Below, in pieces: positions 4,566-29,859 of a stretch of DNA of 64,000 bases. A program made the position numbers and the translations under genes. Source of the stretch: Bacillus gaemokensis (GTDB lineage Bacteria; Bacillota; Bacilli; Bacillales; Bacillaceae_G); contig NZ_LTAQ01000012.1 of NCBI RefSeq assembly GCF_001590835.1, positions 514,925 through 578,924 on the forward strand, in the 5' to 3' direction. Positions within the stretch are counted from its first letter, which is position 1. Every line of letters begins with the position of its first letter. The notes below the pieces were generated by a model, which saw nothing but the letters and a program-made list of their open reading frames with translations, did no database searches and was not told the origin of the DNA.

Positions 4566-4600
4566 TAAAAAAGAGACCATAGTGGTCTCTTTTTTATAAA
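4566..4600 (+). terminator. Terminator after yutH
   Basis: AAAAAAGAGACCA-tag-TGGTCTCTTTTTT is a perfect 13-bp stem with a 3-base loop and T-run. Confidence 0.9.
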
Positions 4601-4607
4601 TTATCTA

Positions 4608-5719: not shown

Positions 5720-5722
5720 TAT

Positions 5723-5753
5723 AAAAAGCCTTTGTGATTGCAAAGGCTTTTCT
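5723..5753 (+). terminator. Terminator after yuzD
   Basis: AAAAGCCTTTG-tgattg-CAAAGGCTTTT hairpin with T-run. Confidence 0.85.
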
Positions 5754-5808
5754 TATACATGTATATGGAAAAAAATTATAATAGGAGATTTTATCAAGGG
5801 GGATATAT

Positions 5809-6609: not shown

Positions 6610-6648
6610 AAAAGCAGCCATACTAGAAATAGTATGGCTGCTTTTTTG
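6610..6648 (+). terminator. Terminator after nucleotidyltransferase gene
   Basis: AAAAAAGCAGCCATACTA-gaaa-TAGTATGGCTGCTTTTTT, a long perfect hairpin. Confidence 0.95.
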
Positions 6649-6837
6649 TATTGAATTTTACTTTGGCTATGCCAGTAGCATTCAATCAGTAGGTTTATCT
6701 TAATTCATATAACTTCCTCTACTTTAAAGGAAGTAAAAGTTTAACTTGGTGTAAAAAAACAATGTTTATATAAGTATTCTAATATATGAGTGTCGTGATT
6801 TTTACTATATACATCTATTTGTTTTTGTAATTTATTA

Positions 6838-6884
6838 AATGAGAAGAAGAATCCACCGAGGATTCTTCTTCTCGTTTTACGTGT
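6838..6884. terminator. Bidirectional terminator
   Basis: GAGAAGAAGAATCC-accga-GGATTCTTCTTCTC stem flanked by T-rich sequence on the right and A-rich on the left. It serves the leftward small gene ending at 6892. Confidence 0.8.
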
Positions 6885-6891
6885 AATTTTA

Positions 6892-7050
6892 TTATGATGC
6901 GGAAATATTTTCATCTTTACGTACTTCAAAAAATTCATTTTTACACAGGTATTTAAAGATTCTTTGTGTAACTTGTTCCTCTTGATCTAATAAGAATCGA
7001 TGATCAAAAGCATAAAAGGATTGCCCCTGAATTAGTTTCACATAATACAT
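6892..7050 (-). CDS. Small conserved protein, unrecognised
   Basis: A 52-residue protein (YYVKLIQGQSFYAFDHRFLL..., mixed basic and acidic, no membrane segment). The ATG at 7050 is chosen because AACGGAGGT lies 8 bases upstream; the longer frame starting at 7074 has no ribosome site. The strong ribosome site and a dedicated terminator make it a real gene. I do not recognise the family. Confidence 0.65.
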   Translation of the reverse strand: MYYVKLIQGQSFYAFDHRFLLDQEEQVTQRIFKYLCKNEFFEVRKDENISAS

Positions 7051-7346
7051 CACGTATACCTCCGTTATATACAATTACATATTTATCATTATGATATCCA
7101 ATATTTGGATGGTGATACCTAGATATTCTGTAAATTGTATTTTAAAAGTGAAATGGAAATTAAGAATGTAAGGAGAACTTGTCATTAGAAGAAGAGTATG
7201 GCAGTATATAAAAATGTAGGAATTCCATATATTATTATGTGAATTTCAAGATATTACTTTCTATTCTCACGAAATTGTAAAAAAAGGAAATTGAATATAA
7301 TTCTTATAGATTAGAATTAATGATAATGAGTGGAGGAAATAAAATT

Positions 7347-7679
7347 ATGTCTAATTTACCAAATTGCCCAAAATGTAATTCAGAATACACGTACGAAGAT
7401 GGAGCTCTTTTCGTTTGTCCAGAATGTGCGCATGAGTGGAATTTAGAAGCAGAAACTGAAGATACAAAAGTTGTGAAAGATGCAAATGGAAATGTGTTAC
7501 AAGATGGTGATTCTGTATCAGTAATCAAAGATCTGAAAGTAAAAGGAACTTCATCGGTTATCAAAATCGGTACAAAGGTAAAAAGCATCCGTTTAGTTGA
7601 TGGAGATCATGATATTGATTGCAAAATTGATGGTTTTGGAGCTATGAAATTAAAATCTCAATTTGTTAAGAAGATATAA
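7347..7679 (+). CDS. PhnA/YjdM family zinc-ribbon protein
   Basis: 110 residues with an N-terminal zinc ribbon ([28 protein letters not shown]: CxxC...CxxC) and a C-terminal PhnA-type SH3-like domain ([38 protein letters not shown]). The family is named after the E. coli phn locus but is not needed for phosphonate breakdown; its function is unclear. The ATG at 7347 follows GGAGGAAATAAAATT. Monocistronic. Confidence 0.9.
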
Positions 7680-7710
7680 GAAAGTTTTTATTGTAATAAA
7701 TATGAGAAAT

Positions 7711-7757
7711 AAAAGACGCTCATTAAGGAGAAATACCATCTTAATGAGCGTCTTTCT
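7711..7757 (+). terminator. Terminator after phnA-like gene
   Basis: AAAGACGCTCATTAAG...CTTAATGAGCGTCTTTCTT stem. Confidence 0.85.
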
Positions 7758-7831
7758 TGTAGTCTCACTTTATTAAGACTTAAATAAAAATGCTTGGATA
7801 GCAAAGACTCTAACATATTGTGACTAAGATG

Positions 7832-8116
7832 TTAGAGTCTTTTCGTCTTATTAGGTGTACCGCTCCATCGTTCTAGTTTATGAATACTTCTTGTAAAGAA
7901 TTTAGATAAAAATCTCGGGAAGCCAAATGAAACAATTTTATTTTCAACAATTTGTTTCATTCCATCTACTGTGATATGAGGTAGGGTGAATGCTCCATTT
8001 TCATAACAATGACTGCAATACCTTGTACTTTTTTCTCCATTTTTTTCTGTGCCGCCGTCCTTTGCATCTTTTGAAAATGGCATGCCGCAACTTTGACAGT
8101 TTTTATACTTTTTCAT
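7832..8116 (-). CDS. Putative zinc-ribbon protein (Zn_ribbon_2 type)
   Basis: 94 residues beginning KNCQSCGMPFSKD and followed by RYCSHCYENGAF: two CxxC pairs separated by about 25 residues, the pattern of the putative zinc-ribbon domain widespread in bacilli. The remainder (ITVDGMKQIVENKIVSFGFPRFLSKFF) is a helical tail. Function unknown. A hairpin (AGACTCTAACAT / ATGTTAGAGTCT, 7805-7842) overlaps the stop codon and probably terminates transcription. Confidence 0.8.
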   Translation of the reverse strand: MKKYKNCQSCGMPFSKDAKDGGTEKNGEKSTRYCSHCYENGAFTLPHITVDGMKQIVENKIVSFGFPRFLSKFFTRSIHKLERWSGTPNKTKRL

Positions 8117-13954: not shown

Positions 13955-14308
13955 ATGATTAATGTAACAGAACAGGCTGCATATCAAATTAAAGATATGT
14001 TAAAAGATGCTGAAGATGGAGAGAAATACGTTCGCCTTGCTGTACATGGCGGTGGATGTAGTGGGCTTTCTTACGGCTTAGGATTTGAAAGAGAACCAAA
14101 TGAAGACGACACAGTTCTTGAATTTTTCGGTGTTGAATTTGTTATTGATAAAGAAAGTGCTCCGATTGTAAAAGGAGTTAACATTGATTACAAGCAATCT
14201 ATGCTTGGCGGTGGGTTCACAATCGATAACCCGAACGCAATCGCATCATGCGGATGTGGATCATCTTTCCGTACAGCGTCGAATGCTGGTAAGCCGGAAG
14301 AGTGTTAA
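13955..14308 (+). CDS. yutM: HesB/IscA-like iron-sulphur cluster insertion protein (YutM), 3' end supplied by the integrated element
   Basis: 117 residues of the HesB/IscA/ErpA family with all three cluster-binding cysteines: GGGCSGLSY and the C-terminal CGCGSSF. It delivers Fe-S clusters to apoproteins. The ATG at 13955 follows AGGAAGGTGG. The 15.55-kb element is inserted in codon phase at codon 88 or later, and the left att copy restores an intact C-terminus with two synonymous differences from the stranded right copy. The native terminator now lies at 29863, so the mRNA must end in element sequence, perhaps at the hairpin before the integrase. Confidence 0.93.
   Translation: MINVTEQAAYQIKDMLKDAEDGEKYVRLAVHGGGCSGLSYGLGFEREPNEDDTVLEFFGVEFVIDKESAPIVKGVNIDYKQSMLGGGFTIDNPNAIASCGCGSSFRTASNAGKPEEC
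14216..14308 (+). repeat. Left attachment site (attL), 93 bp
   Basis: Direct repeat of 29767-29859 with 91 of 93 bases identical. Differences are at 14275 (a/g) and 14296 (g/a), both third codon positions (ACA/ACG, CCG/CCA), so both encode the same 30-residue tail plus stop. The first 59 bases are uninterrupted identity and may contain the crossover core. Confidence 0.95.
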
Positions 14309-14499
14309 CGCTAGAAAGTGCGTCAAATCAACGTTTTTAGTATCGAGATATTAGCGTGTAATCTTTTCGCAAACATAAAGCGCATAGAGTGAAGGTAAAG
14401 GAATGAGGGCGATAGATAACGTCTGAAATTCTAGCATACACAAGTAACTAAGTGTATCTACGTAACCCTACTGCGCATCTATAAGGATTGATAATACCG

Positions 14500-14549
14500 A
14501 CCCTTCTTGACGGTGAATTACAAAATTCATTCGTTGAGGGGGTTTTTTT
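14500..14549 (+). promoter_or_regulatory. Long imperfect hairpin with T-run over the integrase ribosome site
   Basis: ACCC at the left base pairs with GGGGT at the right around a central GTGAATT-acaa-AATTCAT helix, followed by seven Ts. The right arm GAGGGGG is also the integrase ribosome site. The structure can act as a terminator for the truncated yutM transcript and can hide the integrase start. Confidence 0.55.
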
Positions 14550-14550
14550 G

Positions 14551-15588
14551 TTGGCATTAAAACGTAAGAAGAAGCGAGCCGAGCGCACTACGCACAAGTT
14601 GTACCCTAAGATAACTTTACAGCAAGCGCTTGATATAGCAATAGCAGGTAAAAAAGCAGAGGGGCTGCGAGAACGAACGTTAACGGATTATATCAAGATG
14701 TGGCGATATTTTACCGATTGGCTTAATGAAAATTATTCCGATATAGAGTATGTTAACGAGCTTACAGCAGATATTTTCCGTAACTATGTTAATTATTTGC
14801 AGTACGATGCTATACGTTACGATGGTCACAAGTTTATTACCAATCGAGAAGAAAGAGGTCTAAAAGAAACGACAATTAATATACGGCTGCGTACATATCG
14901 CTCTATGTTGAATTACTTAGAGCGTGAGGAGCTAATAGAGTACAATCCGATGGATAATGTACGGCTGCTGCGTCAAGATGTAGACCTTACAAACTGTCTA
15001 ACAGACGAAGAAGTAAAAGCGGTATTAGCGCAACCTAATCAGCGAGAATATGTAGGTTTTCGAGACTTTGTAATTATTAATTTGCTTTTAGATAGCGGAT
15101 TACGTATTAATGAAGCTCTTAATTTACGAATGGAAGAGATTGACTTTAAGACACGCTTTATAACATTGACAGGCGAACGAAACAAAAACCGTAAGCCTAG
15201 ATATGTACCGATATCAGCATTTGTTGCGAAGCTCTTACTACAACTTATCGAAGAGAATAGGGCGCATTTTAAAACAGACCGTATATTCCTTTCATGCTTC
15301 GGTGAGCTACTAGGGGCGAATCACTTTAATAAGCGTCTAAAGTATTACGCAGAAAAGGCAGGTATTAAAGGTAAGAAGGTAACTGCGCATGTCTATCGTC
15401 ATACGTGGGCTAAAAATATGATTCTAAACGGTTGTGATCCATTTACATTACAGAAAATGGGCGGATGGGCTGATATGCGAACGATGCGCAGATACATTCA
15501 AATGGATACAGAAGAAATACGGCGTAGTCATGACGACTTTTCGCCAATAGCAAAGCTATATCAGCGAGCTACTAAAAGAGTTTACTAA
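14551..15588 (+). CDS. int: Tyrosine recombinase / integrase of the element
   Basis: 345 residues from the TTG at 14551 (GAGGGGG 8 bases upstream). The N-terminal basic stretch KRKKKRAERTTHK probably contacts arm sites. A SAM-like core-binding domain (LTDYIKMWRYFTDWLNE) precedes the catalytic domain. Catalytic residues are visible: Arg in LLDSGLRINEALNLR, HxxR in AHVYRHTWAKN, the GGWADMRT segment and the nucleophile Tyr in MRRYIQ. It would recombine attP with yutM. Expression may be controlled by the hairpin over its ribosome site. A low-usage start and rare-codon-like composition fit transfer. Confidence 0.93.
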   Translation: MALKRKKKRAERTTHKLYPKITLQQALDIAIAGKKAEGLRERTLTDYIKMWRYFTDWLNENYSDIEYVNELTADIFRNYVNYLQYDAIRYDGHKFITNREERGLKETTINIRLRTYRSMLNYLEREELIEYNPMDNVRLLRQDVDLTNCLTDEEVKAVLAQPNQREYVGFRDFVIINLLLDSGLRINEALNLRMEEIDFKTRFITLTGERNKNRKPRYVPISAFVAKLLLQLIEENRAHFKTDRIFLSCFGELLGANHFNKRLKYYAEKAGIKGKKVTAHVYRHTWAKNMILNGCDPFTLQKMGGWADMRTMRRYIQMDTEEIRRSHDDFSPIAKLYQRATKRVY

Positions 15589-15597
15589 AAAGAAAAA

Positions 15598-15619
15598 GTC
15601 CCCAGCGCCAACTGGAGAC
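15598..15619 (+). terminator. Hairpin after the integrase gene
   Basis: GTCcCCAG-cgccaa-CTGGaGAC: 7 of 8 pairs, 9 bases after the stop. No strong T-run follows, so termination is uncertain; it may instead be the first helix of the downstream RNA. Confidence 0.5.
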
Positions 15620-15720
15620 TTAAAACATTCGCATATAACTAAATAACCGACGATACCGTCATTCAGTACCTTCATTTTATCGAAAATTTTCGAGGAATGC
15701 AAGGCTTCTTAAGTGCTGTC

Positions 15721-16105
15721 TTTTTTAGGTACTGCTGCGGTAGAGTCACGACGTGGAAGCCGTACCAAGTCGTTAAATTAAAACACGTAAAAGGGGAGCT
15801 GAACCGCCGCAAACATCAGCGCTACACATTCAACACGCATCCCTTCCACGTGTGTGTAGGCTAGGTGGTCGCTACCATGCGAAAGCAAAAATGCGAGGAG
15901 TGGACGAGCTTTGTTACTACGGTAACAGGGTCTTCGGTAAGATATGTATCGTGGGAAGCTCTACGATATAGAAAGACCGAAGGGTGAGAAATCGCCAAAG
16001 TTGGAAGGGGCATACTTAGAAACCTCAGCAATCGACCGATGCTAGTATCGTGCTTTACCTCTTATTCGCATTGATGATTTTATCTTTGCGAGTAGGGGTA
16101 AGCTG
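15721..16105 (+). ncRNA. Candidate large ornate structured RNA
   Basis: The 658-base gap between integrase and sigma-like gene has no usable open frame but a dense set of strong helices on the + strand. Long-range TGCtGCGGT (15733-15741) pairs with ACCGCcGCA (15803-15811), enclosing ACGAC/GTCGT. AGC-CTACACA (15818-15828) pairs with TGTGTAGGCT (15853-15862). GGTGG-tcg-CTACC lies at 15864-15876, and TGC(GAAA)GCA, a GNRA loop, at 15878-15887. TGTTAC(TACG)GTAACA, a UNCG-type loop, lies at 15912-15927. TCTTCGGT (15931-15938) pairs with ACCGAAGG (15976-15983) around an 11-pair hairpin (15945-15970). A 17-pair hairpin spans 16052-16103. Size, density and phage-element location resemble ROOL/GOLLD-class RNAs; family membership is not shown. 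The 5' and 3' ends are estimates. Confidence 0.65.
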
Positions 16106-16246
16106 CGCCGTTATTTCCTAGACGCTCTCCCTCTGCTAGTAATTTTGTTAACCATAGTCAAGTATAAAATCGAAAATATTAGCCATTGGCGAAGAGTTGC
16201 GGAACGGCGTAGGTAAACATAATACGCAGTAAGGGGAAGCAACATA

Positions 16247-16810
16247 ATGGTAAGCAAAAAGCTAAACGCAGCAGCTATCGAAGCTAAGAGGGATACAGCG
16301 AGAATGTGGGCTATTAAATTGCACTATATGCCGCTAATAGAACGGCTAACATTCGAAAATTGGTACAAGATGAATAATGAAACGCATTTTATAGACGACT
16401 GTTACCGTAAGATTGAATACGCAGTGAGGTCGTTTGATATAAATAAAGGGAGCTTTGATAATAGAGTAAAGGCGCTTATATATCAGAGTGTAAGGCAATA
16501 TTGTGGTAATCGAGGGAATAGGCGTAGAGTATTGCAGCTAGTTGGTGAAGGTTTGGACACAATAGATAAAATAGATACGAATACAGATGTAGAGGAAAAG
16601 GCGTTAGAAGCAATCGTAAGAGAAGAATTTTACGAGAAGCATTGTGAAAGGGAGACCGATAAGCTAATAGTGGATATCGTTTTTGATACGGATTACATAG
16701 AAAATAAGAGTGAAATTGCTAGAAGGTTAGCAGAGAAAACAGGACGTACATTCCATAGTGCTAGAGGCGCTGTGCGTTCATTTATAAGTCGTAAGAGGGT
16801 TGCGTCTTAG
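16247..16810 (+). CDS. Sigma-70-like factor, phage/element type
   Basis: 187 residues. The segment FIDDCYRKIEYAVRSFDINKGSFDNRVKALIYQSVRQY (residues about 48-85) resembles sigma region 2 (core binding and -10 recognition), and ETDKLIVDIVF...NKSEIARRLAEKTGRTFHSARGAVRSFISRKR at the C-terminus resembles a region 4 helix-turn-helix. It could direct RNA polymerase to element promoters. ATG follows AAGGGGAAGCAACATA. It lies just after the large structured RNA and before small membrane-protein genes. Alternative: a non-sigma DNA-binding protein with a coincidental HTH. Confidence 0.6.
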   Translation: MVSKKLNAAAIEAKRDTARMWAIKLHYMPLIERLTFENWYKMNNETHFIDDCYRKIEYAVRSFDINKGSFDNRVKALIYQSVRQYCGNRGNRRRVLQLVGEGLDTIDKIDTNTDVEEKALEAIVREEFYEKHCERETDKLIVDIVFDTDYIENKSEIARRLAEKTGRTFHSARGAVRSFISRKRVAS

Positions 16811-16821
16811 TGGATGATTAA

Positions 16822-16850
16822 TTACATAAATTTACTGTTTGCGGTACAAT
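16822..16850 (+). promoter_or_regulatory. Sigma-A-type promoter
   Basis: TTACAT, 17-base spacer, TACAAT, 37 bases before the start of the gene at 16887. Confidence 0.6.
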
Positions 16851-16886
16851 AAAGAGTAGAATGTATCGGGATAAGGGGGAAATTGT

Positions 16887-17204
16887 ATGTACATCAGCAT
16901 AGAGAGAAAGGCAGAGCTGTTCGAAGGGCTTTTAAACCGTTTGCGAAGTGACCAAACTATTATGGTAGGTAGTCTTTCACAGTTTAACTTATCTAATGTG
17001 AATACAATAAGAAAGTTACATATTATTCGCAATTGGGATATTAAAACAGTCTATTGTCGTAAAACAGGAGTAGCTGAGGAGTATATTCAACCTTTAAATT
17101 CAGAGAAAATACGCCTGTTTTCGGGTGGGGTGTGTAAAGTCTGTGTGAAAAAGTGGATTAAAGAAGAGTTTGATAAGCTATTGCAGGAAGAAAAAGATAG
17201 ATAG
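16887..17204 (+). CDS. Unrecognised 105-residue element protein with CxxC
   Basis: Mixed helical/strand protein (YISIERKAELFEGLLNRL... SLSQFNLSNVNTIRKL) ending in a basic helix; a CKVC pair near residue 83 and a Cys near residue 57 could bind zinc. The ribosome site AAGGGGGAAATTGT and a promoter directly upstream support it. Its stop is 12 bases before the next gene. No function assigned. Confidence 0.7.
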   Translation: MYISIERKAELFEGLLNRLRSDQTIMVGSLSQFNLSNVNTIRKLHIIRNWDIKTVYCRKTGVAEEYIQPLNSEKIRLFSGGVCKVCVKKWIKEEFDKLLQEEKDR

Positions 17205-17216
17205 GAGCGGATATCT

Positions 17217-17408
17217 ATGAGCGAAGACAAAGTAACCTTAACCATGCTAGCGATATTAACTGTAGCGCTGGTATTCGTCGGCGTCTCGTCTAAGTTCGAT
17301 AGCCTTGTCGTTGATATCATCGCCGTACTGTTCCTGCTGGTGTCTACCGTAGTAGGTGCGGCGATTATAACCGAACGTAGGCTGCGCAAAAAGAACGCAA
17401 GGTGGTAG
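17217..17408 (+). CDS. Small two-span membrane protein
   Basis: 63 residues: acidic start, hydrophobic span LTMLAILTVALVFVGV, short loop, second span VDIIAVLFLLVSTVVGAAII, basic tail RRLRKKNARW. TAGGAGCGG is the ribosome site. It resembles the product of 18120-18326 in length, two-span layout and tail, so the two are probably paralogues. Holin-like or membrane-anchoring roles are possible; nothing in the sequence decides. Confidence 0.65.
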   Translation: MSEDKVTLTMLAILTVALVFVGVSSKFDSLVVDIIAVLFLLVSTVVGAAIITERRLRKKNARW

Positions 17409-17428
17409 CGGTATATGCAGAGGCGTAT

Positions 17429-17450
17429 GCGTAAAGAATGTTGTTTACGC
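17429..17450. repeat. Inverted repeat GCGTAAA-N8-TTTACGC
   Basis: Perfect 7-bp inverted repeat. The same half-site occurs as an inverted pair at 19935-19958 and, in the opposite arrangement, at 28849-28867, plus a single copy at 20055. Likely an operator for an element regulator. Confidence 0.5.
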
Positions 17451-17497
17451 TTTTGAGGCGAAAGCATTGCGCATATGCAGTGAATGCAAAATGAATT

Positions 17498-17545
17498 GTT
17501 AGTGTTAACGTTAATGTTAATACTAATGTTAATGTTTGTGTTGAA
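17498..17545 (+). repeat. Eight tandem hexamers, GTTAAT type
   Basis: Units read gttagt, gttaac, gttaat, gttaat, actaat, gttaat, gtttgt, gttgaa with exact 6-bp spacing, ending on the -35 box of the next promoter. Confidence 0.7.
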
Positions 17546-17570
17546 ATATTCGAGAGAGCAACGGTATAAT
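17541..17570 (+). promoter_or_regulatory. Sigma-A-type promoter between two repeat arrays
   Basis: TTGAAA, 18-base spacer, TATAAT. The hexamer array overlaps its -35 box and the decamer array covers the expected transcript start. The only features downstream on this strand are the antisense side of the candidate toxin gene and the terminator at 17890-17922. Confidence 0.6.
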
Positions 17571-17580
17571 AGAAATAGTT

Positions 17581-17640
17581 GTACTGGAGTATACTTTAGT
17601 GTACTTTAGTGCACTTGAGCGCACGTGATTTCACTTAACT
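17581..17640 (+). repeat. Six helically phased decamers, consensus gTACTTTAGT
   Basis: gtactggagt, atactttagt, gtactttagt, gcacttgagc, gcacgtgatt, tcacttaact follow with no gaps. A 10-bp period places each unit on the same face of the helix, as expected for cooperative protein binding. Confidence 0.65.
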
Positions 17641-17730
17641 GCGCCTATTGCTTTTAAATGCTACCAAATTTTAATGGTACTTAATGTACTTCTTAGAATA
17701 GTTATTGGTATTTGAGGAATACTATATAAA

Positions 17731-17765
17731 GAAAAAAGCCTCTCAGTGCGCTAACACTGAAAGAC
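17731..17765 (-). terminator. Terminator of the candidate toxin mRNA
   Basis: On the minus strand GTCTTTCAGTG-ttagcg-CACTGAGAGGC forms an 11-pair stem followed by TTTTTT. Confidence 0.8.
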
Positions 17766-17780
17766 TTTCAATAAAAAATA

Positions 17781-17864
17781 TTACTTCTTTCCTTTGCTCA
17801 TGTTAATCATTCCCATAACGACCATGAGTAAAGAACAAACCGCAGTAACGGTGATTGCGTCCAT
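17781..17864 (-). CDS. Candidate type I toxin: 27-residue membrane peptide
   Basis: A 27-codon frame with ribosome site AAGGTGG 9 bases before ATG. The peptide has an acidic start (MDAITV), one hydrophobic span (TAVCSLLMVVMGMI) and a basic end (SKGKK), the layout of the small holin-like toxins of Firmicute type I systems (TxpA/BsrG-like). It has its own promoter (17934-17963), a hairpin in the 5' leader and a strong terminator, giving an mRNA of about 200 nt. The opposite strand carries a terminator inside the leader region, so an antisense RNA overlapping the mRNA is expected. Relationship to a named family is inference. Confidence 0.6.
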   Translation of the reverse strand: MDAITVTAVCSLLMVVMGMINMSKGKK

Positions 17865-17889
17865 GTATGTATTCACCACCTTGCGAAAA

Positions 17890-17922
17890 GCCTTTCGTAC
17901 GCTAATACGATGGGCTTTTTTT
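17890..17922 (+). terminator. Plus-strand terminator for a presumed antisense RNA
   Basis: GCCTTTCGT-acgctaat-ACGATGGGC with one wobble and one mismatch, followed by TTTTTTT. It ends a + strand transcript that would be fully complementary to the toxin coding region. Confidence 0.75.
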
Positions 17923-17933
17923 CATATACTTGT

Positions 17934-17963
17934 ATTATAACCCATTCTGTTTATAGATTCCAA
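17934..17963 (-). promoter_or_regulatory. Promoter of the candidate toxin gene
   Basis: On the minus strand TTGGAA, 18-base spacer, TATAAT (17934-17939), placing the transcript start near 17927. Confidence 0.55.
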
Positions 17964-18119
17964 AAGTTATTTTTTATACAAAATCATATATAGCGTGTTT
18001 TGTTTTGAAGTTATATACAGTGCGATTTAATTAGAGTTAACAATGTAATTTAAGAGAGAGTGACGAAAAAATAAAAGGACGTAATGTCTTCTTACTTTTG
18101 AAAGGAGAGGAATGCGCAT

Positions 18120-18326
18120 ATGAAAATAAAAGTAAAAATAAAAAAAGGGAAAAAACATTCAGCTATACTTTTGTTAATAGCGTTCATAGGGCTAGTCGTT
18201 ACGGATATTATCGGAAACTTGTATCTTGATGCAGCCGCAGTAATATTCGGGCTGGCTGTATTCGCAGCAATTATTACAGATATGATTGGAGAGTGGCGAA
18301 AGAAAAAGGAGAAGGGGACGCATTAA
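18120..18326 (+). CDS. Small two-span membrane protein
   Basis: 68 residues: very basic start (KIKVKIKKGKKH), span AILLLIAFIGLVVTDII, loop, span AAAVIFGLAVFAAIITDMI and basic tail GEWRKKKEKG. Ribosome site AAAGGAGAGG. It begins a tight cluster with the small gene at 18322 and the lipoprotein at 18453, so the three are probably cotranscribed. It has the same layout as the protein at 17217. Function unknown. Confidence 0.65.
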   Translation: MKIKVKIKKGKKHSAILLLIAFIGLVVTDIIGNLYLDAAAVIFGLAVFAAIITDMIGEWRKKKEKGTH

Positions 18327-18453
18327 GGTTCGATTCAGTAAAGAAGGCGGAAGAAGCCTGTTATTCGATGAACAATACATAAATGAGTACATTCAAAATA
18401 ATCATGCGTGGGAAGTTGAAGCACTGGACATAGTAAAAGGGGATATCAAATAA
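18322..18453 (+). CDS. Small coupled protein with a non-standard start
   Basis: An open frame of about 43 codons (VRFSKEGGRSLLFDEQYINE..., ending EALDIVKGDIK) fills the space between two genes. It has no ATG, GTG or TTG near its start; ATT at 18322 lies just after AAGGAGAAGGGG, a strong ribosome site. Its TAA overlaps the lipoprotein ATG as TAATG, and the lipoprotein's ribosome site (AAAAGGGG) lies inside it, so it is almost certainly translated. Alternatives are a +1 frameshift extending the membrane protein at 18120, or decay of an original start codon. Confidence 0.55.
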   Translation: MKVRFSKEGGRSLLFDEQYINEYIQNNHAWEVEALDIVKGDIK

Positions 18454-19472
18454 TGAATACATATAAATCAATTAAAAAAGTAATGTTAGTAGGAATCACG
18501 GCAACAGCGCTATTAAGTGGGTGCGGTGGTTCCAACGAAGGTAACACTAACGAAGGTAAATCTAACGAAATCAATACCGAAAAGTCACCGAAAGAGGTTG
18601 CACAGGAAATGTACGAAGCTGAAAAGAAGTCGAAGGAAGTCGAAAAAGAGCTGAACGCATTACGCGAATCTGAGAACAGTGAATTCCTTATCGACCTTGA
18701 CATCAAAATTGACGGTAAGAAGCCGCAGAAACTAACGTTTGATGTTGATAACGGCGGAAGTTTATCCATAGATTCATTTAAATCGTTAAAAGTCGGTATG
18801 AGTGCGGAAAAGGTAGCGAAAACACTAGATAAAAACGTTGCATTTGCGTCATTCATGCGCATCAAACAGTACGGAAAGAAGTGGGAAGGTACAATGTACA
18901 CATATAAGTACGAATCTAACGGAATAGAAACGCGTATTGAAGTGTATTTCACTCACGAAGACGACGAATTGAAGTTATACGGCGCGCATCGTACGGAAAT
19001 AAACCGCGCTAATGAGTGGAAACAAACGACGCTAGACAATAAACGTGGATTCATCGGACAAGGAGCGGATACGGCAAAGGATGCACCTAAGAATGATAGC
19101 GTAGCAGATACGACTAGCGAGGCTACTGACAAGCCCACATCGAGTAAGGCGGATACACCTGCAAAGAGTACAAAGTCTGCTATTCCTAACGATTATTGCG
19201 GACATGGACACGATGAAACGAAGCAAGAAGCGCATGGCTGCGATAAGATTATTGATGAAGAAGCGCACAAAAGACATCTGCAACAACAGGAACGAGAATA
19301 TGAAGAACAACAGCGCAAGGAAGCGAAGCAATACCAATCGGAAATGACCGAAGAGGACAAGGCGAGAATCCTACGTCAAGAAAAGCGCTGGAATACGCCT
19401 AGTGGTGGTATTGGTGATAAGTGGCAAGATGAAATGAAGGAAATGGAAGAGCAGGAAGGTGCGCAACAATGA
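18453..19472 (+). CDS. Element-encoded lipoprotein
   Basis: 339 residues. Signal peptide with lipobox LLSGC, lipidated Cys24, so it is anchored on the outer face of the membrane. Then a charged coiled coil (residues about 40-70, ESPKEVAQEMYEAEKKSKEVEKE type), a folded region with SFKSLKVGMSAEKVAKTL that resembles small SmpA/OmlA-like lipoprotein domains, and a long low-complexity charged C-terminal tail containing a CGHGHDE...HGC cluster that could bind metal. It is translationally coupled to the small gene before it. Surface lipoproteins of prophages sometimes block superinfection, which is one possible role; nothing proves it. Confidence 0.75.
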   Translation: MNTYKSIKKVMLVGITATALLSGCGGSNEGNTNEGKSNEINTEKSPKEVAQEMYEAEKKSKEVEKELNALRESENSEFLIDLDIKIDGKKPQKLTFDVDNGGSLSIDSFKSLKVGMSAEKVAKTLDKNVAFASFMRIKQYGKKWEGTMYTYKYESNGIETRIEVYFTHEDDELKLYGAHRTEINRANEWKQTTLDNKRGFIGQGADTAKDAPKNDSVADTTSEATDKPTSSKADTPAKSTKSAIPNDYCGHGHDETKQEAHGCDKIIDEEAHKRHLQQQEREYEEQQRKEAKQYQSEMTEEDKARILRQEKRWNTPSGGIGDKWQDEMKEMEEQEGAQQ

Positions 19473-19518
19473 AATTAGTTTGGACATGGACACGATGAAG
19501 CGAATAGGATACGAAGGT

Positions 19519-19548
19519 GGGACGCTGTAATAGGCGTCTCTTTTCTTT
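19519..19548 (+). terminator. Terminator after the lipoprotein gene
   Basis: GGGACGC-N8-GCGTCTC (one wobble) followed by TTTTCTTT. Confidence 0.8.
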
Positions 19549-19558
19549 GTATAAGGTA

Positions 19559-19762
19559 TTATATAATCGCCGTAGTATCGCCCGAAGCGAATGCCTGCCC
19601 TACTGCCGTTTGTAGGCACATTTCTTCGTTAATATCCATTGTTTTAACGTCTGCACTCGCCTTCTCTTCGATATTTAGCAGTTGAGTGCGTACTTCTTTC
19701 GCAAGGCAATCGACAGGCTCGAAACATTTGTGCATAATAGGTACATTATTGGTACGTAGCAT
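19559..19762 (-). CDS. Unrecognised 67-residue protein
   Basis: Mostly helical and acidic (CLAKEVRTQLLNIEEKASADVKTMDINEE), ending AVGQAFASGDTTAII. No clear ribosome site precedes the ATG at 19762 or the internal ATG at 19735, so the call rests on amino-acid composition and position between two terminators. It may be decayed. Confidence 0.4.
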   Translation of the reverse strand: MLRTNNVPIMHKCFEPVDCLAKEVRTQLLNIEEKASADVKTMDINEEMCLQTAVGQAFASGDTTAII

Positions 19763-20145
19763 AGGATATCGGAATGTATCAGTATCTATTAATACGGAGT
19801 AATCAACGAAATGGCGTTTGATGCTCGATGATTAGTGGTATATAGCAGTACATATCGGTACATATTGAAATGTAGTATTATATAGTAATACTCGATGGGA
19901 GGGTTACGCCGAGAATGCGTGGCTCTTTTTATATGCGTAAAGTAACAACGATTTACGCCATGTAAACTATCTGATAAGTTAACGTAAGATGTCGCAAAGC
20001 TATGCGGCTCTAGGGGTTACGCTAGTTCGTGTGTAACTTAAATGATTACAACCGTTTACGCTACAGGCGAAATCACGGGGCTGTAAACCTGCTGCGAGGT
20101 CGGGCTGGGGACACTTTCTAAAACTCAAGGGGTCACGTAGACAAC
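19763..20145. other. Gene-free regulatory-looking stretch
   Basis: No credible gene. It holds the inverted pair GCGTAAA-N10-TTTACGC (19935-19958), a third copy of TTTACGC at 20055-20061, and several GTTACGC/GTTAACG variants between. Confidence 0.5.
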
Positions 20146-20168
20146 AAAAAAGACGCCCTTATGAGCGC
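20146..20168 (-). terminator. Terminator of the resolvase gene
   Basis: On the minus strand GGCGC-tcataag-GCGTC with a wobble, followed by TTTTTTG; a short stem. Confidence 0.55.
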
Positions 20169-20171
20169 CCC

Positions 20172-20741
20172 TTATACTTCTCGTTTTAAATCACGTTTCT
20201 TTATTTCACGATAGAGGATAGATTTACCTACGCCTGTACTTTCTTCGATTTCTTTAATAGTTTTATCGCCTTGTTTCCATATTTCAATCGCAAGCTCTAC
20301 CTGTCCTTTCGCTTTACCCTTGCGCCCTAGTTTAATGCCTTTACGTTTCGCATTCTCTAGCCCTGCGTTACGCTTCTCCGCTAGTAGTTCTCTTTCGTTT
20401 TCAGCAAGCGCAGATAGAATCGTAAGGAACATTTTCCCGTTTCTATGCGTTACTTCCATTCCCAGTTCGATTACAAATAGCGTGATGTTTCGTTTCTGTA
20501 ATTCGTTTACTAGCTCTAGTAGCTGCTGCGTATTACGCCCTAAGCGGTCTACACGAGTTACTACGATAGTATCGCCGTCCTGCGCAGTCTCGAGTAATCT
20601 TTCTAGCTCTGGACGCTTAAACGTTGCGCCTGTCATCTTTTCCTCTATAATTACATCGCATTTTCTAGTTTTTAATTGCTCTATTTGCGTATCTAAGTTT
20701 TGCTCTCTAGTCGAAACCCTTGCATATCCAAATGATGTCAT
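20172..20741 (-). CDS. Serine recombinase, resolvase/invertase type
   Basis: 189 residues with the complete small serine recombinase layout: catalytic Ser10 in FGYARVSTREQNLDTQ, TGATFKRPELERLL, the DTIVVTRVDRLGRNTQ motif, LAENERELLAEKRNAGLENAKRKG as the E-helix, and a C-terminal helix-turn-helix (TIKEIEESTGVGKSILYREIKKR). It could resolve dimers of a circular form, or invert DNA. Repeats of AGGGAA directly upstream look like its binding sites. A resolvase beside an integrase and a Rep-like protein suggests an extrachromosomal phase. Confidence 0.92.
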   Translation of the reverse strand: MTSFGYARVSTREQNLDTQIEQLKTRKCDVIIEEKMTGATFKRPELERLLETAQDGDTIVVTRVDRLGRNTQQLLELVNELQKRNITLFVIELGMEVTHRNGKMFLTILSALAENERELLAEKRNAGLENAKRKGIKLGRKGKAKGQVELAIEIWKQGDKTIKEIEESTGVGKSILYREIKKRDLKREV

Positions 20742-20789
20742 TATGTATTCCCCGTTTTCTTATATTGTTGTACCTATTCTAACATATTA

Positions 20790-20875
20790 TTTAGGGAATG
20801 AAAATAGGGAATGTTTAAACCCGCATAAAATAAGGGCGGCACTTCGATTCCCTTTTATTATACTTTTAGGGAAAC
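20790..20875. promoter_or_regulatory. Candidate res site: repeated AGGGAA half-sites
   Basis: TAGGGAATG occurs twice 12 bases apart, then TTCCCT-N14-AGGGAA as an inverted pair, 50-130 bases upstream of the resolvase start. The arrangement of direct and inverted half-sites is like a resolvase res site or its operator. Confidence 0.5.
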
Positions 20876-21062
20876 ATTATCAAACGCCCCTATATTCAAT
20901 TATTACGATGACAGGGCGGCATATGTTCTCACATTTCTATCAATACGCCCGCATATATCCTTACACGCCGATACGGTACGGCATAGGGCGATAGGCGGCT
21001 GCACAGGCTTGCGCACACGGGCTTATATGCGATGAGGTACTGTAAAATTGTATTCGAACGTC

Positions 21063-21335
21063 CTAGAACGTCTCCATGAACCTTGTGCGTCTTTTTGCAG
21101 CGTCTATGTCTTTATGGTGGGCGCAGTACTTATACATGGACACGCTAAGGCTGCACGCTGCTGGGTGTATGGTACATGCGGTACTACCTAATGCTATGCG
21201 TCTTCTAGTATCGCAGCTGTAAGTATTAGAAGGTAATTGAATGCGAGGAAAGCAGCGAGTCTTTGCAATGTCTTTGTTTCTTTTAATCGTATTACTTTGC
21301 GAAGTCTTTTGCGTTGTCTTCGAAGAGTAAAGCAA
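21063..21335 (-). CDS. Possible small zinc-finger protein (weak)
   Basis: A 90-codon frame whose second half, ACTIHPAACSLSVSMYKYC followed by AHHKD, has a C-x6-C...YxYCxHH pattern like the N-terminal zinc knuckle of phage HNH endonucleases, but no HNH core follows. No ribosome site is visible and the first half overlaps nested inverted repeats, so it may be a gene remnant. Confidence 0.3.
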   Translation of the reverse strand: MLYSSKTTQKTSQSNTIKRNKDIAKTRCFPRIQLPSNTYSCDTRRRIALGSTACTIHPAACSLSVSMYKYCAHHKDIDAAKRRTRFMETF

Positions 21336-21364
21336 AGTTGATCCTAAAAAGAAAAGCGATTAAA
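21282..21364. repeat. Nested inverted repeats
   Basis: TTTAATCG (21282-21289) pairs with CGATTAAA (21357-21364), and inside it ACTTTGC (21294-21300) pairs with GCAAAGT (21332-21338); a CTTCGAAG palindrome lies in the loop. The surrounding 20742-21860 stretch has no strong gene. Confidence 0.5.
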
Positions 21365-21667
21365 GATTGAATGCGAAGTCAATCGAAGTCGAGTCAGATT
21401 GCAAGCGCAGCAAAGAAGATTACTTGCGAGGAAAGAAGCGTCCGAAAAGGAATCACAATCAAAGCTTATCATCGAAGTGAAGAGCAGCGAAGCCAGTGGC
21501 GAGGACTTTGCGAGGAAGGAAGGTGGCGAAGCGAATACACCGAGCCACCCGAAGCGAATCGACCATTTCCCCCATGGTTGGGGGCAGATACCGCTGCAAC
21601 TCGTGTACGCACCTTGCTTACATATTTTTAAATCTGAGGGGTTACGCATACCAGTATTACTAACTAC

Positions 21668-21711
21668 CTGCGCCTAGAGAAACGGAAGGGCGGCTAGGGT
21701 TGTCCGCTCAC
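21668..21711 (+). repeat. Conserved box, copy 1: CTGCGCCTAGAGAAACGGAA
   Basis: The same 20-base core recurs at 22663. Here CCTAG pairs with CTAGG 17 bases later, forming a small hairpin around GAGAAACGGAAGGG. Confidence 0.5.
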
Positions 21712-21741
21712 TACAACGTCATACTACACTCTTTTTCTTCG

Positions 21742-21772
21742 GACTACGGCTTATGTCGTGGTCTCTTTTTTT
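21742..21772 (+). terminator. Terminator or attenuator in the rep leader
   Basis: GACTACG-gcttatgt-CGTGGTC with one wobble, followed by TCTTTTTTT, 93 bases before the Rep-like start codon. It may stop upstream transcription or attenuate the rep mRNA. Confidence 0.75.
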
Positions 21773-21864
21773 GCGTAGAATACCAGCCTTTCGAATACTA
21801 AGCGCCTATAGGTACGCATGGGGCGGTTAGCCCACATCATAAAAACAAGAAGGAGAGAACGAGA

Positions 21865-22404
21865 ATGACAGTAGAACAAAACAACCCAGTAACACAAGTA
21901 AATGATAAGCAGGGGCTGCTAGATGCAGGCGGCTATGATATTTACAACGTTAAGTTAATGCAAGATGTATTTCCTCGCATTATAAAGGAAGTACACAAGA
22001 TGTACAAAGCGAAGGGAAAGAAAGTACCGCAGATACGTGACGTAATAGCTTTTTACTTCACACTACATGCTTATACCTATAAGAAGGACGAAATGGACAG
22101 CTTTTTCGGCGCATGTTTCCAATCGTATGAGGGGATTATGGCGCATCTAAAAGTAGATAGAAAGCGTATTAAATGGCTCGCAGACATATTAGAGGCAAAC
22201 GGACTGATTAGACGAGAACGACGACGTGAGGGATTACGCAATAGAGTGCTATACTTCCCGAGCTATGCGCCCCGCATTTCCGATGATGGATATTTAGTAG
22301 ACGAGAACGGCGCTAAAATCGTGCCTAATATGGAAGTTTACGAGCTTACGAAGCCAGTAGCTGCGCCAGTGTTGGTTAAGCCTACTAACGATAGTGCCGC
22401 TTAA
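21865..22404 (+). CDS. Replication-initiator-like winged-helix protein
   Basis: 179 residues. The central part (YDIYNVKLMQDVFPRIIKEVHKMY, RDVIAFYFTLHAYTYKKDE, SYEGIMAHLKVDRKRIKWLADILEANGLIRRERRREGLRNRVLYFP) reads as a winged-helix DNA-binding domain with the KRIKWLADILEANGLI recognition helices, as in plasmid/phage replication initiator N-terminal domains. AAGAAGGAGAG is the ribosome site. Direct repeats start in its last codons and three 15-bp iterons follow 34 bases after the stop, the classic rep-ori layout. It lacks an obvious catalytic Tyr/HUH motif, so iteron binding is the better model. A transcriptional regulator is the alternative. Confidence 0.6.
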   Translation: MTVEQNNPVTQVNDKQGLLDAGGYDIYNVKLMQDVFPRIIKEVHKMYKAKGKKVPQIRDVIAFYFTLHAYTYKKDEMDSFFGACFQSYEGIMAHLKVDRKRIKWLADILEANGLIRRERRREGLRNRVLYFPSYAPRISDDGYLVDENGAKIVPNMEVYELTKPVAAPVLVKPTNDSAA

Positions 22405-22424
22405 CCCTACTAACGATAGTACCG
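22381..22424 (+). repeat. 25-bp-spaced direct repeat CCTACTAACGATAGT
   Basis: CCTACTAACGATAGTGCCG (22381) and CCTACTAACGATAGTACCG (22406), overlapping the end of the Rep-like gene. Confidence 0.75.
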
Positions 22425-22437
22425 TCTACCCACACGG

Positions 22438-22482
22438 TAAATATATAAACGTTAAATATATAAACGCTAAATATATAAAGAG
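22438..22482 (+). repeat. Three tandem 15-bp iterons, candidate replication origin
   Basis: TAAATATATAAACGT, TAAATATATAAACGC and TAAATATATAAAGAG follow each other without gaps. They are AT-rich and directly downstream of the Rep-like gene. Confidence 0.75.
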
Positions 22483-23008
22483 TTTGTCTCGTATTAACAT
22501 ACAAGACAATGTTAACGCAGTAACTACTAAGTATTTAAAGAGGAAGGAAAGAATGCGTATATAAAAGATAAAAGATATAAGAAGAGAAAACGAACAGTAC
22601 CGCTAGACCACACTACGTGCAGCGAAGAATATAGCGGAGCGGATACCAAGTAGGCAGGAAGACTGCGCCTAGAGAAACGGAAAGGTTGGGTGAATTCTTT
22701 CTAGTGAATCAACTGCGTAAAAAATATAAAAAAGTTTCGTTCCAGTATACACGTTTTGAGTCTATAGCCGTACATATAGGTGAAGGGAATAGGGTACGCA
22801 CCTGTTCTCAATCTAGTTAAGTAAGTACCAAGCTCGTATGCGCTTCGGGTTCGTACTTATTGCGCAGCTATATTCAATCCTGCCGTATTAGAGAGGGCGC
22901 TAGTTGCGGGGCGGGGCGCCCAACCCTAATTTTAACCTACGATGTCTGTCACTTTTTTTAAATATTAACCGTACATAAAGTATGGAAATACAGGAGGTAG
23001 TTACATAT
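22483..23008. other. Gene-free stretch with structured segments
   Basis: Contains the second copy of the CTGCGCCTAGAGAAACGGAA box (22663-22682) with an alternative CCTAG/TTGGG pairing, a TAAGTAC...GTACTTA helix near 22824-22860, and GGGCGC...GCGCCC at about 22896-22921. No gene is evident. Confidence 0.45.
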
Positions 23009-23191
23009 ATGGATTTTCTTAAGGCAATGCAATTAGTAAAGCAAGACAAAAGATTAAGAAGAAAAGCATGGCGCAAAGGGGAATTTATTTATTTTCCCTA
23101 TAGTGAGTGCGTTGTAATGAAAACTGGCTCAAAACGAATGTATAAGCCAACGAAAGAAGACGTCAACACAGATGATTGGGAGGTGTGTTAA
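23009..23191 (+). CDS. Tad2-like (DUF2829) small protein, candidate anti-Thoeris
   Basis: 60 residues from the ATG at 23009, whose ribosome site CAGGAGGTAG lies just upstream; the earlier ATG at 22982 precedes that site and is not used. The pattern DFLKAMQLVKQDKRLRRKAW at the start and KPTKEDVNTDDWEVC at the end matches the DUF2829/Tad2-like family (tFxeAlxxmkxGkxvxRxxW ... eDixaxDWxv). Studied members are phage proteins that form tetramers and sponge the cyclic-ADP-ribose-type signal of Thoeris defence. Many DUF2829 proteins are untested, so anti-defence activity is inference. It overlaps or abuts the XRE gene. Confidence 0.7.
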   Translation: MDFLKAMQLVKQDKRLRRKAWRKGEFIYFPYSECVVMKTGSKRMYKPTKEDVNTDDWEVC

Positions 23192-23494
23192 ATGAATGCT
23201 GCGACAATCCGTTTTACAAGAAAACTTCTAGATTTAACGCAAACCGAGTTAGGAAATCTGGCAGGTGTTAATCGACAAGCTGTAAATCGATGGGAGAGGG
23301 GGTTACAAAACCCGAATAGAGATAGTGTAAAGCGAATCCGAACGGTGCTTGGTGACGAAGTCCTTGCAAAGATAGACGTATTTATGTACGAACAGGAGCT
23401 AAAAGAGCTAAAAGATTCAGTTAAAGCGCAAGTAGCCGCACGAGCTAAAGTTAAAAGAAAAGACGGAAGTACGAAAGCGGGTGTAAATGTATGA
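23192..23494 (+). CDS. XRE-family helix-turn-helix regulator
   Basis: 100 residues with an N-terminal Cro/C1-type HTH: FTRKLLDLTQTELGNLAGVNRQAVNRWERGLQNPNRDSVKRI. A helical, basic C-terminal half (EQELKELKDSVKAQVAARAKVKRK) follows. GGGAGGTGTGTTAA precedes the ATG. It starts directly after the Tad2-like stop and its own stop overlaps the next gene by 4 bases, so it belongs to a tight operon with both. It probably controls this operon or the element's lysogeny-like state. Confidence 0.85.
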   Translation: MNAATIRFTRKLLDLTQTELGNLAGVNRQAVNRWERGLQNPNRDSVKRIRTVLGDEVLAKIDVFMYEQELKELKDSVKAQVAARAKVKRKDGSTKAGVNV

Positions 23495-23955
23495 GACCTC
23501 TCATGGTATGTAACGTCCACGAACTGTGGGGGCGCTCCTTCTTATACGCTTATGTATACGACGATAATTATTTACTCGCACAAATTATCTCGCCTGTAGA
23601 AGATGAGCCAATAGCCAAGAAGATACGAGAAATAGTGTGGAGCAACTGCGACGACTTACCAGCGTTCGATGTATGGACAAGCACCGAATCTATTTATCTA
23701 GCGTGTTTAGGTGAACCCGATATGACGGGACACTTTAAAACGCAGGAAGATACCTCGGAAACATTCAGAAGTTTCGAAGACGAGAAGATGCAAATAGCTC
23801 TAATCGACATGTATGAATTAAAAGATCCGAATGAAATAAAACAAATAAAACAAATACCGAAGTGGCGCACAGTATTAATCGAGTGGCTGCGTAAAGGTAT
23901 TCAACTATTAGAGGGGGAAACGAAAGATGGAATGGGAACTATACGAGAAATATAA
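23491..23955 (+). CDS. Unrecognised 154-residue element protein
   Basis: Starts at the ATGA overlap with the XRE gene. The N-terminal half is strand-rich with aromatic residues (LWGRSFLYAYVYDDNYLLAQII, NCDDLPAFDVWTSTESIYLACLGEPDM), the second half helical and charged. No known motif is visible. The last 29 bases overlap the next gene. Conserved spacing argues for a real product. Confidence 0.7.
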   Translation: MRPLMVCNVHELWGRSFLYAYVYDDNYLLAQIISPVEDEPIAKKIREIVWSNCDDLPAFDVWTSTESIYLACLGEPDMTGHFKTQEDTSETFRSFEDEKMQIALIDMYELKDPNEIKQIKQIPKWRTVLIEWLRKGIQLLEGETKDGMGTIREI

Positions 23956-24529
23956 GGCACAAGACGATAAGGCATTAGAGTTCACAGAAAGATACGCACA
24001 GAAGGTAAGAGATGCGAAAGAGAGTGTAGCAGCTGCTGTAGTGGTATATGAAGATGTACTGCGCAAGGGGTTTGCAGGCGAAAGTGTCGGGACTCAAAAG
24101 AAGAAGGCGCTAGGGGATATCGACAAGGCTAAAGCTGCGCTGCAAGTAGCAGAGAAAGAGGCGAGTCAAGCGAATGAGTACGCCGAACAGGAGCTACAAG
24201 GGAGAATCACTGTAGAGGATTTATGGGCGGACTGGGATAACAGTATTGAACCCAAGGTTCAAAAAGAACGTGTACAACCAATCATAGAACGAGCGCAGAA
24301 GGCTATATTGGAATACTACCGTTCCATCGTGGCGTACTACGAGTTAAATAATGAGTTTAACGAAATAGGTTCTGACTTAAATAGTCTAGCTCGTGGACGT
24401 AAGGGTGCGCAGCGATACTTTTACGGAGTATTTCAAGATGCCGATATGCCAAAAATAGACGAGCATATCATAGAGCAGATTCATAGATATCAAAAGCTAC
24501 CTGTAGCACTTCAAGAAAAAACTAACTAA
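23927..24529 (+). CDS. Unrecognised 200-residue coiled-coil protein
   Basis: Almost entirely helical, with long heptad-like stretches (residues about 15-90, KALEFTERYAQKVRDAKE..., KAKAALQVAEKEASQANEYAEQ) and a Trp/Tyr-rich centre (VEDLWADWDNSIEP, ILEYYRSIVAYYELNNE). ATG follows GAGGGGGAAACGAAAG, inside the preceding gene. Its place three genes before a tape-measure gene would suit a tail chaperone or scaffold, but no such family is recognised. Confidence 0.65.
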   Translation: MEWELYEKYKAQDDKALEFTERYAQKVRDAKESVAAAVVVYEDVLRKGFAGESVGTQKKKALGDIDKAKAALQVAEKEASQANEYAEQELQGRITVEDLWADWDNSIEPKVQKERVQPIIERAQKAILEYYRSIVAYYELNNEFNEIGSDLNSLARGRKGAQRYFYGVFQDADMPKIDEHIIEQIHRYQKLPVALQEKTN

Positions 24530-24550
24530 TTAAAGGAGACAGAGGAGACA

Positions 24551-25309
24551 ATGGCAAACACTACTAACATTATTCAAGAAAACATCGACAAAGCTAGAGA
24601 AATTAAGAAAGGTACAACAAGTTTCATGAGCGGTTTAATGAACGAATTTTACCGCCCAGAGCGTAACGCAATCGAAATGGACAAAATGCTAACGTACGAA
24701 GGGAAGAAGGAAAAGGCGAAGAAACTTAGTGATAAGTACGAAGTAGCCTTTATGCGTGAGATGCAGAAGCGTCGTGATGAATACGAAGCGCTGCTGCAAG
24801 AAGCGAAACTAGAAGCCGAAAAAGTACTAATCGCTACTGCGCCAAAAGTCGAAGAACATACGCAGAAACTATTCGATTTAAAAGCGGGTAAAGTGAAAAG
24901 CGCAGTAATGTTCGCATCATCTAGTACAAGCGCTATTAAGTCGCTAGAGCAGCTCGTATCTGCTGAGAAAGAACCTGCATTAGCTCAACAGGCGCTAGCT
25001 TCCTTTATGGATATGTCGCAGCAAGTACTAGAGCTAACACCAGCAGGACAAAAGGTGGCAATACGTAAGCAACTGGGCGACATGTACAAGCGTTTAGAAG
25101 GTCAATCGGAAGTGGGAGATGCGACAGGAGCTAGAGCGGCTATTCAAGATATAGAGAGTCTAGCAGGTGCGCCATTCGCTATCGGATTCATTCAAAAGGC
25201 GGCAGCCGAAATTAGCGAGGATACAGCGAAATACATGAACGAGCCTAGTCGATACTTCGAAGAGAAAACAGGCTTTGTACAGGAAGTAGAATCGGTACGA
25301 ACACGATAA
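24551..25309 (+). CDS. Unrecognised 252-residue helical protein
   Basis: All-helical, Ala/Glu/Lys-rich (KKEKAKKLSDKYEVAFMREM, RRDEYEALLQEAKLEAEKVL), with a less charged C-terminal region (AAIQDIESLAGAPFAIGFIQKAAAEI). Strong ribosome site GGAGACAGAGGAGACA. Ends at a terminator that separates it from the tape-measure gene. Could be a structural or chaperone protein of the tail module; not recognised. Confidence 0.68.
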   Translation: MANTTNIIQENIDKAREIKKGTTSFMSGLMNEFYRPERNAIEMDKMLTYEGKKEKAKKLSDKYEVAFMREMQKRRDEYEALLQEAKLEAEKVLIATAPKVEEHTQKLFDLKAGKVKSAVMFASSSTSAIKSLEQLVSAEKEPALAQQALASFMDMSQQVLELTPAGQKVAIRKQLGDMYKRLEGQSEVGDATGARAAIQDIESLAGAPFAIGFIQKAAAEISEDTAKYMNEPSRYFEEKTGFVQEVESVRTR

Positions 25310-25316
25310 AAGTTAA

Positions 25317-25350
25317 GGCGCGGGATGATTTAGACCCTCGCGTCTTTTTC
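25317..25350 (+). terminator. Terminator between the 252-residue protein and the tape-measure gene
   Basis: GGCGCGGG-N10-CCCtcGCGTC with a two-base bulge, followed by TTTTTC. Confidence 0.7.
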
Positions 25351-25385
25351 TATGTGAAAAATACATAATACGGAGGGGAAACTAA

Positions 25386-29766: not shown

Positions 29767-29859
29767 TTCACAATCGATAACCCGAACGCAATCGCATCAT
29801 GCGGATGTGGATCATCTTTCCGTACGGCGTCGAATGCTGGTAAGCCAGAAGAGTGTTAA
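29767..29859 (+). repeat. Right attachment site (attR), stranded yutM tail
   Basis: 93-bp direct repeat of 14216-14308. It encodes the last 30 codons and stop of yutM without a start and is followed at once by the native yutM terminator, showing that this was the original chromosomal junction. Confidence 0.95.

Follow-up and report, generated by a model that had tools for sequence, protein, structure and literature searches.

A large structured RNA behind the integrase gene of a Bacillus gaemokensis integrative element, and its relatives in the Bacillales

The gap between the integrase gene and the next open reading frame of an integrative element in Bacillus gaemokensis carries a conserved + strand fold, which runs along the gap and goes beyond chance. 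The RNA appears to represent a new class of large RNAs in bacteria, found mainly in mobile elements of the Bacillales; to our knowledge, few classes of large structured RNA are known in bacteria. On balance, we favour the view that the new class is some 520-600 nt long and exerts its effect in trans as a folded molecule, or within an RNA-protein particle, and not as a leader. The window referred to below is the whole stretch of 64,000 nt that was analysed.

The element and the RNA in its gap

The element is ~15.55 kb long and is bounded by a 59-nt direct repeat, found by repeat comparison, whose left copy (attL, 14250..14308) is 97% identical to the right copy (attR, 29801..29859). This bears out the initial annotation, which had placed the RNA in an integrative element. 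The insertion site is the 3' end of a HesB/IscA-like host gene (13955..14308, + strand), an ORF for which a homologue fetch returned 43 loci and which we take to be the gene at the yutM position. In other genera, too, the end of this gene has a match to the final ~93 nt of the element, and at the related locus L074 a similar host gene was read by eye just upstream of the integrase. The tyrosine recombinase gene of the element (14488..15588, + strand; Pfam Phage_integrase, 2.5e-34; start codon unsettled) is oriented inward and is followed by a gap of 658 nt (15589-16246), which extends from the integrase stop to the start of a 187-aa ORF (16247..16810, + strand). The latter matches phrog_27067 (3.3e-44) and has no match in Pfam. 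Elsewhere, the element carries an 1120-aa tail tape-measure-like gene (PhageMin_Tail, 25386-28748) despite its size of only 15.5 kb, and a 23-nt direct repeat (21668-21690 and 22663-22685, 96% identical). A resolvase-type recombinase gene lies on the - strand of the window at 20172-20741.

The gap was said at the outset to lack a usable reading frame and to be rich in strong + strand helices, and both statements stand. The longest ORF within it that begins with ATG, GTG or TTG is 56 aa (frames were listed from 40 aa) and the longest stop-to-stop stretch wholly inside it is 73 aa; a hidden protein was rejected on the lack of a usable frame and on homologue alignments that are rich in indels. 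The + strand of the gap folds at -207.7 kcal/mol (z -4.55) and the - strand with a z of -3.50, with none of 20 shuffles as good in either case, and the hairpins originally named are found in the sequence.

The structured RNA extends over approximately 15611..16163 on the + strand, its ends being unmapped. Its position is given by blastn and by two models, R1 for the 5' domain (10 sequences) and R2 for the middle domain (29 sequences), while the putative 3' domain of the window was assigned by alignment only. R1 matches the window at 15611-15803 with 139 bits and R2 at 15745-15878 with 60.7 bits; as the window sequence was included in both training sets these scores are not independent, whereas the blastn finding is.

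At the 5' edge of the RNA, a terminator scan found a terminator-like hairpin for transcription of the - strand (15596..15621), and a hairpin preceded by an A-run is seen by eye at this position in the alignment of ten related loci with the window. The 5' domain is closed by the + strand helix P1, in which CAGTACC (15664..15670) pairs with GGTACTG (15728..15734); P1 was recognised by eye, with differing letters, in most of the aligned relatives that lie behind a recombinase gene. There follow, all on the + strand, a stem ACGAC..GTCGT (15748..15773), which is helix 2 of the family consensus (92.5% paired, with six of its seven pairs changed on both sides), and the ACAC..TGTGT region (15824..15857), which corresponds to consensus helices 5 and 6 (11 of 11 pairs changed on both sides). 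Further along the sequence are a UNCG-capped hairpin, GUUAC[UACG]GUAAC (15913..15926), with counterparts in relatives noted by eye, and a long-range stem, CUUCGGU/ACCGAAG (15932..15982; strands 15932-15938 and 15976-15982), also present in the predicted fold, which encloses an inner hairpin and corresponds to family helix 9 (76.4% paired, the window being off register there). A GNRA-capped hairpin, GGUGA[GAAA]UCGCC (15983..15996), is family helix 10. The 3' hairpin (16052..16103, + strand) is supported by sequence and fold and by alignment of relatives, and is flanked by two + strand copies of a direct repeat, TGCTAGTA, at 16040..16047 and 16134..16141, identified by a repeat search.

Conservation of the fold and comparison with known families

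With the window copy as query, blastn gave matches in 24 of 397 Bacillales genomes (E 0.01; best 8.7e-12), several of which are short and may be due to chance; 14 of the 24 lie within or across a single block, window positions 15621-15730 and its edge. In an alignment of the window with ten loci, nine of these share most of ~550 nt and one (L071) has only the 5' part. R1 matches 51 and R2 50 of the 397 genomes, the lowest-scoring places being doubtful. A class-wide draw of 378 genomes gave 11 with a match, of which six were already in the Bacillales draw, and in the family of Ectobacillus none of 19 genomes matched, a count that is uninformative for want of a positive. A third model, R3, describes the 3' domain by sequence only and was built without the window. 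It did not recover the 3' domain of the window at E 1, nor did it find L172, L174 and L175. Of the 12 other loci that had been held out it recovered seven, each with an E of 2e-5 or lower; some of these are close to its members.

Beyond the genome draws, four queries run against 50,697 records found no phage relative at the DNA level. The window copy matched no plasmid, and with relatives as query only Sutcliffiella pBH-BAT-15 and Bacillus velezensis pDMB05-1 were found. In IMG/VR, the integrase had no match, the 187-aa ORF matched five stretches of which none was confirmed, and three exact patterns taken from the RNA gave 0, 1 and 0 matches. One IMG/VR contig, L171, carries the RNA (R2, 56 bits).

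Covariation among homologues had been proposed as a check on the helices, and it is strong on the + strand. An alignment of 44 sequences yielded a consensus of 48 pairs in 11 helices, in which 88.8% of the pairs are standard, against 70.8% (sd 0.6) in shuffles. Cells changed on both sides number 376, compared with 128 (sd 10) when shuffled and 73-114 when partners were slid; 41 pairs show changes on both sides (30.1 in shuffles), and the covariation score is 0.502, against 0.201 shuffled and at most 0.124 slid. On each of the five measures, all 500 shuffles fell short of the real alignment. Since the helices had been predicted from this very alignment, their advantage over the slid versions is partly expected; related sequences were counted singly, and the letters of the window are off register in some helices. 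The reverse strand was ruled out as the RNA by pairing and by consensus energy, which is -121.7 on the + strand against -85.9 on the reverse for 37 sequences and -52.4 against -39.1 for 44. In nine of the 11 helices a larger share of cells is paired on the + strand, and GNRA-capped hairpins with changing stems are legible as such on this strand only (the first 18 of 54 rows being covered).

The initial annotation had likened the RNA to the ROOL and GOLLD classes and had named group I and II introns as families to be checked. Neither suggestion found support in covariance model searches, which favour, together with the covariation, the other possibility it had raised, a new class. A cmscan of positions 15400-16500 to E 10 returned nothing meaningful (SNORD11B, sar and NsiR1 lay far under their thresholds), scans of 14 loci to E 1, of which ten contain a clear copy, placed no family over the RNA, and 11 further loci with copies gave only rRNA and tRNA at gathering scores. 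Across the whole window, only ncr1241, a Bacillus sRNA away from the RNA (61163-61228, - strand, 66.9 bits), reaches its gathering score. The models of ROOL, GOLLD, OLE and the group I and group II introns have no match in the window or in the scanned loci, and the RNA is therefore no recognisable member of any of these families. OLE is, like the present RNA, a large conserved RNA of the Bacillota, and differs from it in that the latter has no Rfam match. In titles and abstracts of open-licence PubMed Central the RNA is not reported among the matches listed.

It might still be argued that the RNA is a ROOL, GOLLD, OLE or intron RNA that has diverged beyond the reach of the Rfam models. Its size and habitat resemble those of ROOL and GOLLD as portrayed in excerpts of PMC12286853; the absence of any match in the scans described above, namely those of the window (E 10), of 14 loci (E 1) and of 11 more (gathering scores), makes this very improbable in our view. 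According to these excerpts, which describe no function for it, ROOL too is large and ornate, belongs to mobile elements, both prophages and phages, and is often located near tRNA islands in phages, whereas the present RNA has no Rfam match and is placed either behind an integrase gene or behind a DUF1659-DUF2922-YvrJ operon. GOLLD is likewise large and carried by mobile elements, and its 5' part is less conserved; it differs in that many of its members exceed 800 nt (PMC12286853), while the present RNA has no Rfam match and no tRNA was found in the window. Both ROOL and GOLLD form homo-oligomeric cages composed only of RNA (excerpts of PMC12286853).

Genomic contexts and proposed function

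A census of 75 places, the window included, put 34 copies behind a tyrosine recombinase gene (class I; recombinase ending no more than 700 nt ahead of the model match), 21 with a DUF2922 gene (class II) and 20 elsewhere (a third kind). The first census held 74 places (34, 20 and 20), to which L189 was added as class II; L080, L082, one weak R2 place and R1 places below 32 bits, unless reached by R2 or a plasmid record, were left out. In 17 of the 20 class II places of the first census DUF1659 and YvrJ accompany DUF2922, and L189 has all three, the family identities having been confirmed on single examples. The position behind the DUF operon had not been foreseen by the initial annotation. DUF2922 is present in 362 of 397 Bacillales genomes, and a search of 12 DUF2922 loci, drawn from places without a match, with R2 and filters off did not find the RNA at any of them; the trio can therefore do without the RNA.

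In class I, the distance from the recombinase stop to the RNA start has a median of 94 nt (range 17-517; 31 places with a recombinase ORF of at least 290 aa). Six of the 34 copies consist of the 5' part only (L071, L122, L131, L138, L143 and L150), with no R2 match better than E 0.3, and one place, L079, is weak (34 and 27 bits). A coding sequence was seen by eye close behind some of the six, and an ORF of 81-85 aa, similar among L070, L073, L075 and L078, lies between the integrase gene and the RNA. Among places of the third kind, L162-L164 and L166-L169 score at most 45 bits and may be false, L166 lying on a long ORF; L084, L156, L159 and L161 are near a repressor-like ORF and small ORFs (by eye). 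L083 lies on a circular 15.2-kb plasmid. In L129, L083, L135 and L158 a terminator-like hairpin, again read by eye, takes the place of the 5' domain directly before the conserved core.

The orientation of the next ORF of at least 90 aa, determined by crude ORF calling, differs between contexts. It is co-directional with the RNA at 28 of 33 class I places and, among copies of the third kind, at 12 of 18. In class II it is convergent at 16 of 19 places, and at L189 besides, and co-directional at the other three. Action in trans or as a particle is preferred over a leader because class II copies keep the fold though the next gene is usually opposed. A single function that would serve both mobile and chromosomal copies is that of a folded RNA in its own right, and this is the reading we rate as most likely, with modest confidence. 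The RNA would be transcribed together with the integrase gene, or behind it, and the transcript would fold into a compact multi-domain RNA. Judging from gene orientation alone, the folded RNA may then act in trans or as an RNA-protein particle, and within the element it might help to maintain the element or its cargo, or to express them.

The most serious rival is a cis-acting processive antiterminator, like conAn2 of pLS20 or canT of Tn916, which would allow transcripts that begin at or ahead of the integrase gene, once they include the RNA, to read through terminators into the operon of the element. These, like the present RNA, are large RNAs at one end of the gene set of a Gram-positive mobile element. 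According to PMC8955417, canT is 452 nt long and lies close to one end of Tn916, with orf8 on one side and xis on the other; its size and place, as described, are similar to those of the present RNA. The co-directional genes behind most class I copies and most copies of the third kind are also what such a mechanism would call for. Mobile copies alone fit a cis-acting leader; most chromosomal copies could not act in this way. Unlike conAn2 and canT, the chromosomal copies mostly have no co-directional gene behind them, and their place before convergent genes therefore argues against a general antiterminator role. In addition, R1 and R2 run with filters off gave best E values of 0.16 and 0.094 in pLS20 1-8000, neither of them significant, so that no homology to conAn2 was found there, and terminator-like sites on both strands of 14250-30000 number 18, against 12.8 expected (sd 4.5). 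We consider the antiterminator a tentative alternative, clearly less probable than a folded RNA that acts in its own right.

Less likely again is that the RNA is a 3' UTR, or an attenuator-type control of the upstream gene (the integrase gene or the DUF operon) whose regulated terminator would be the 5' domain. The 5' domain does contain AAGGC..GCCUUUUUU, the four copies with a terminator-like hairpin have, by eye, a longer one with a U-run there, and the 5' parts linked to integrase genes persist without the remainder. Most aligned class II copies, however, lack the U-run but keep the core, and some 400 nt of conserved core would be left unexplained. As the recombinase gene adjoins the RNA, a bridge-type guide RNA for the recombinase may also come to mind. 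This we think highly improbable, since class II copies have no neighbouring recombinase and a comparison with the DNA ahead of the integrase gene, in which only the longest exact shared or complementary stretches were counted, gave p <0.05 at one of 30 class I places, with a p of 1.0 for attL and 0.80 for attR in the window.

The direct repeat, defence cargo and wider meaning

A second feature that had not been anticipated is a covarying direct repeat. In 33 of 44 members a direct repeat of 7-10 nt (shared stretch of at least 7 nt) flanks the 3' hairpin, with copy 1 at 22-32 nt and copy 2 at 109-136 nt from the start of the 3' domain; the rate is 14.6% in shuffles and 18.7% when copies were paired across members, the search ranges having been chosen after the pattern had been noticed by eye. 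The members are not independent, as relatives share letters. The letters are identical within a member and variable between groups: TGCTAGTA in the window, and CCATGTTG, CAATCAAG, CTTCAGT and others elsewhere. Two places inside the RNA carry the complement of the repeat above expectation, one in 9 of 42 members (0.3 expected) and the other in 8 (0.4 expected). Eight of the nine and all eight, respectively, are close class II relatives, and because both places are nearly confined to these no intramolecular partner of the repeat common to the family was found. No regular complement was found nearby in 29 members. For a sequence that is constant within a molecule and variable between groups, this analysis found no explanation. 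One speculative possibility, which we hold to be rather unlikely, is that the two identical stretches of 7-10 nt, of which the first precedes the 3' hairpin and the second lies in the 3' tail, are address sequences that engage one outside partner, in a form of recognition that has not been described, and that the copies at DUF1659-DUF2922-YvrJ operons are the host-side counterpart.

The genes carried behind class I copies include several with links to defence. When one ORF was chosen per place (mostly the longest in range), nine of 20 matched PADLOC at 1e-10, eight of them in the first ten places and one in the second ten; of ten control ORFs beside class II copies four matched (one subtilase, two Csa3-type regulators and one PDC-S63), so that the difference between the classes is suggestive only. 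Methyltransferase, ApeA-like, AbiJ, DitA or Mrr-like genes were seen downstream of the RNA in L070, L072-L075, L077, L078, L115 and L117. A pooled scan behind class I copies covered 60 of the 79 ORFs listed; four of these 60 are resolvases.

Restriction, ApeA-like, AbiJ or other defence-type genes lie within about 4.5 kb behind the RNA in several elements, and the RNA may therefore mark a family of defence-carrying elements, a suggestion for which the control is not clean. ROOL and GOLLD are mobile-element RNAs for which the excerpts of PMC12286853 likewise describe no function. The defined positions of the present RNA, behind an integrase gene and behind a three-gene operon, together with its occurrence in many genomes, among them harmless hosts fit for laboratory work, make the question of what such large RNAs do a testable one.
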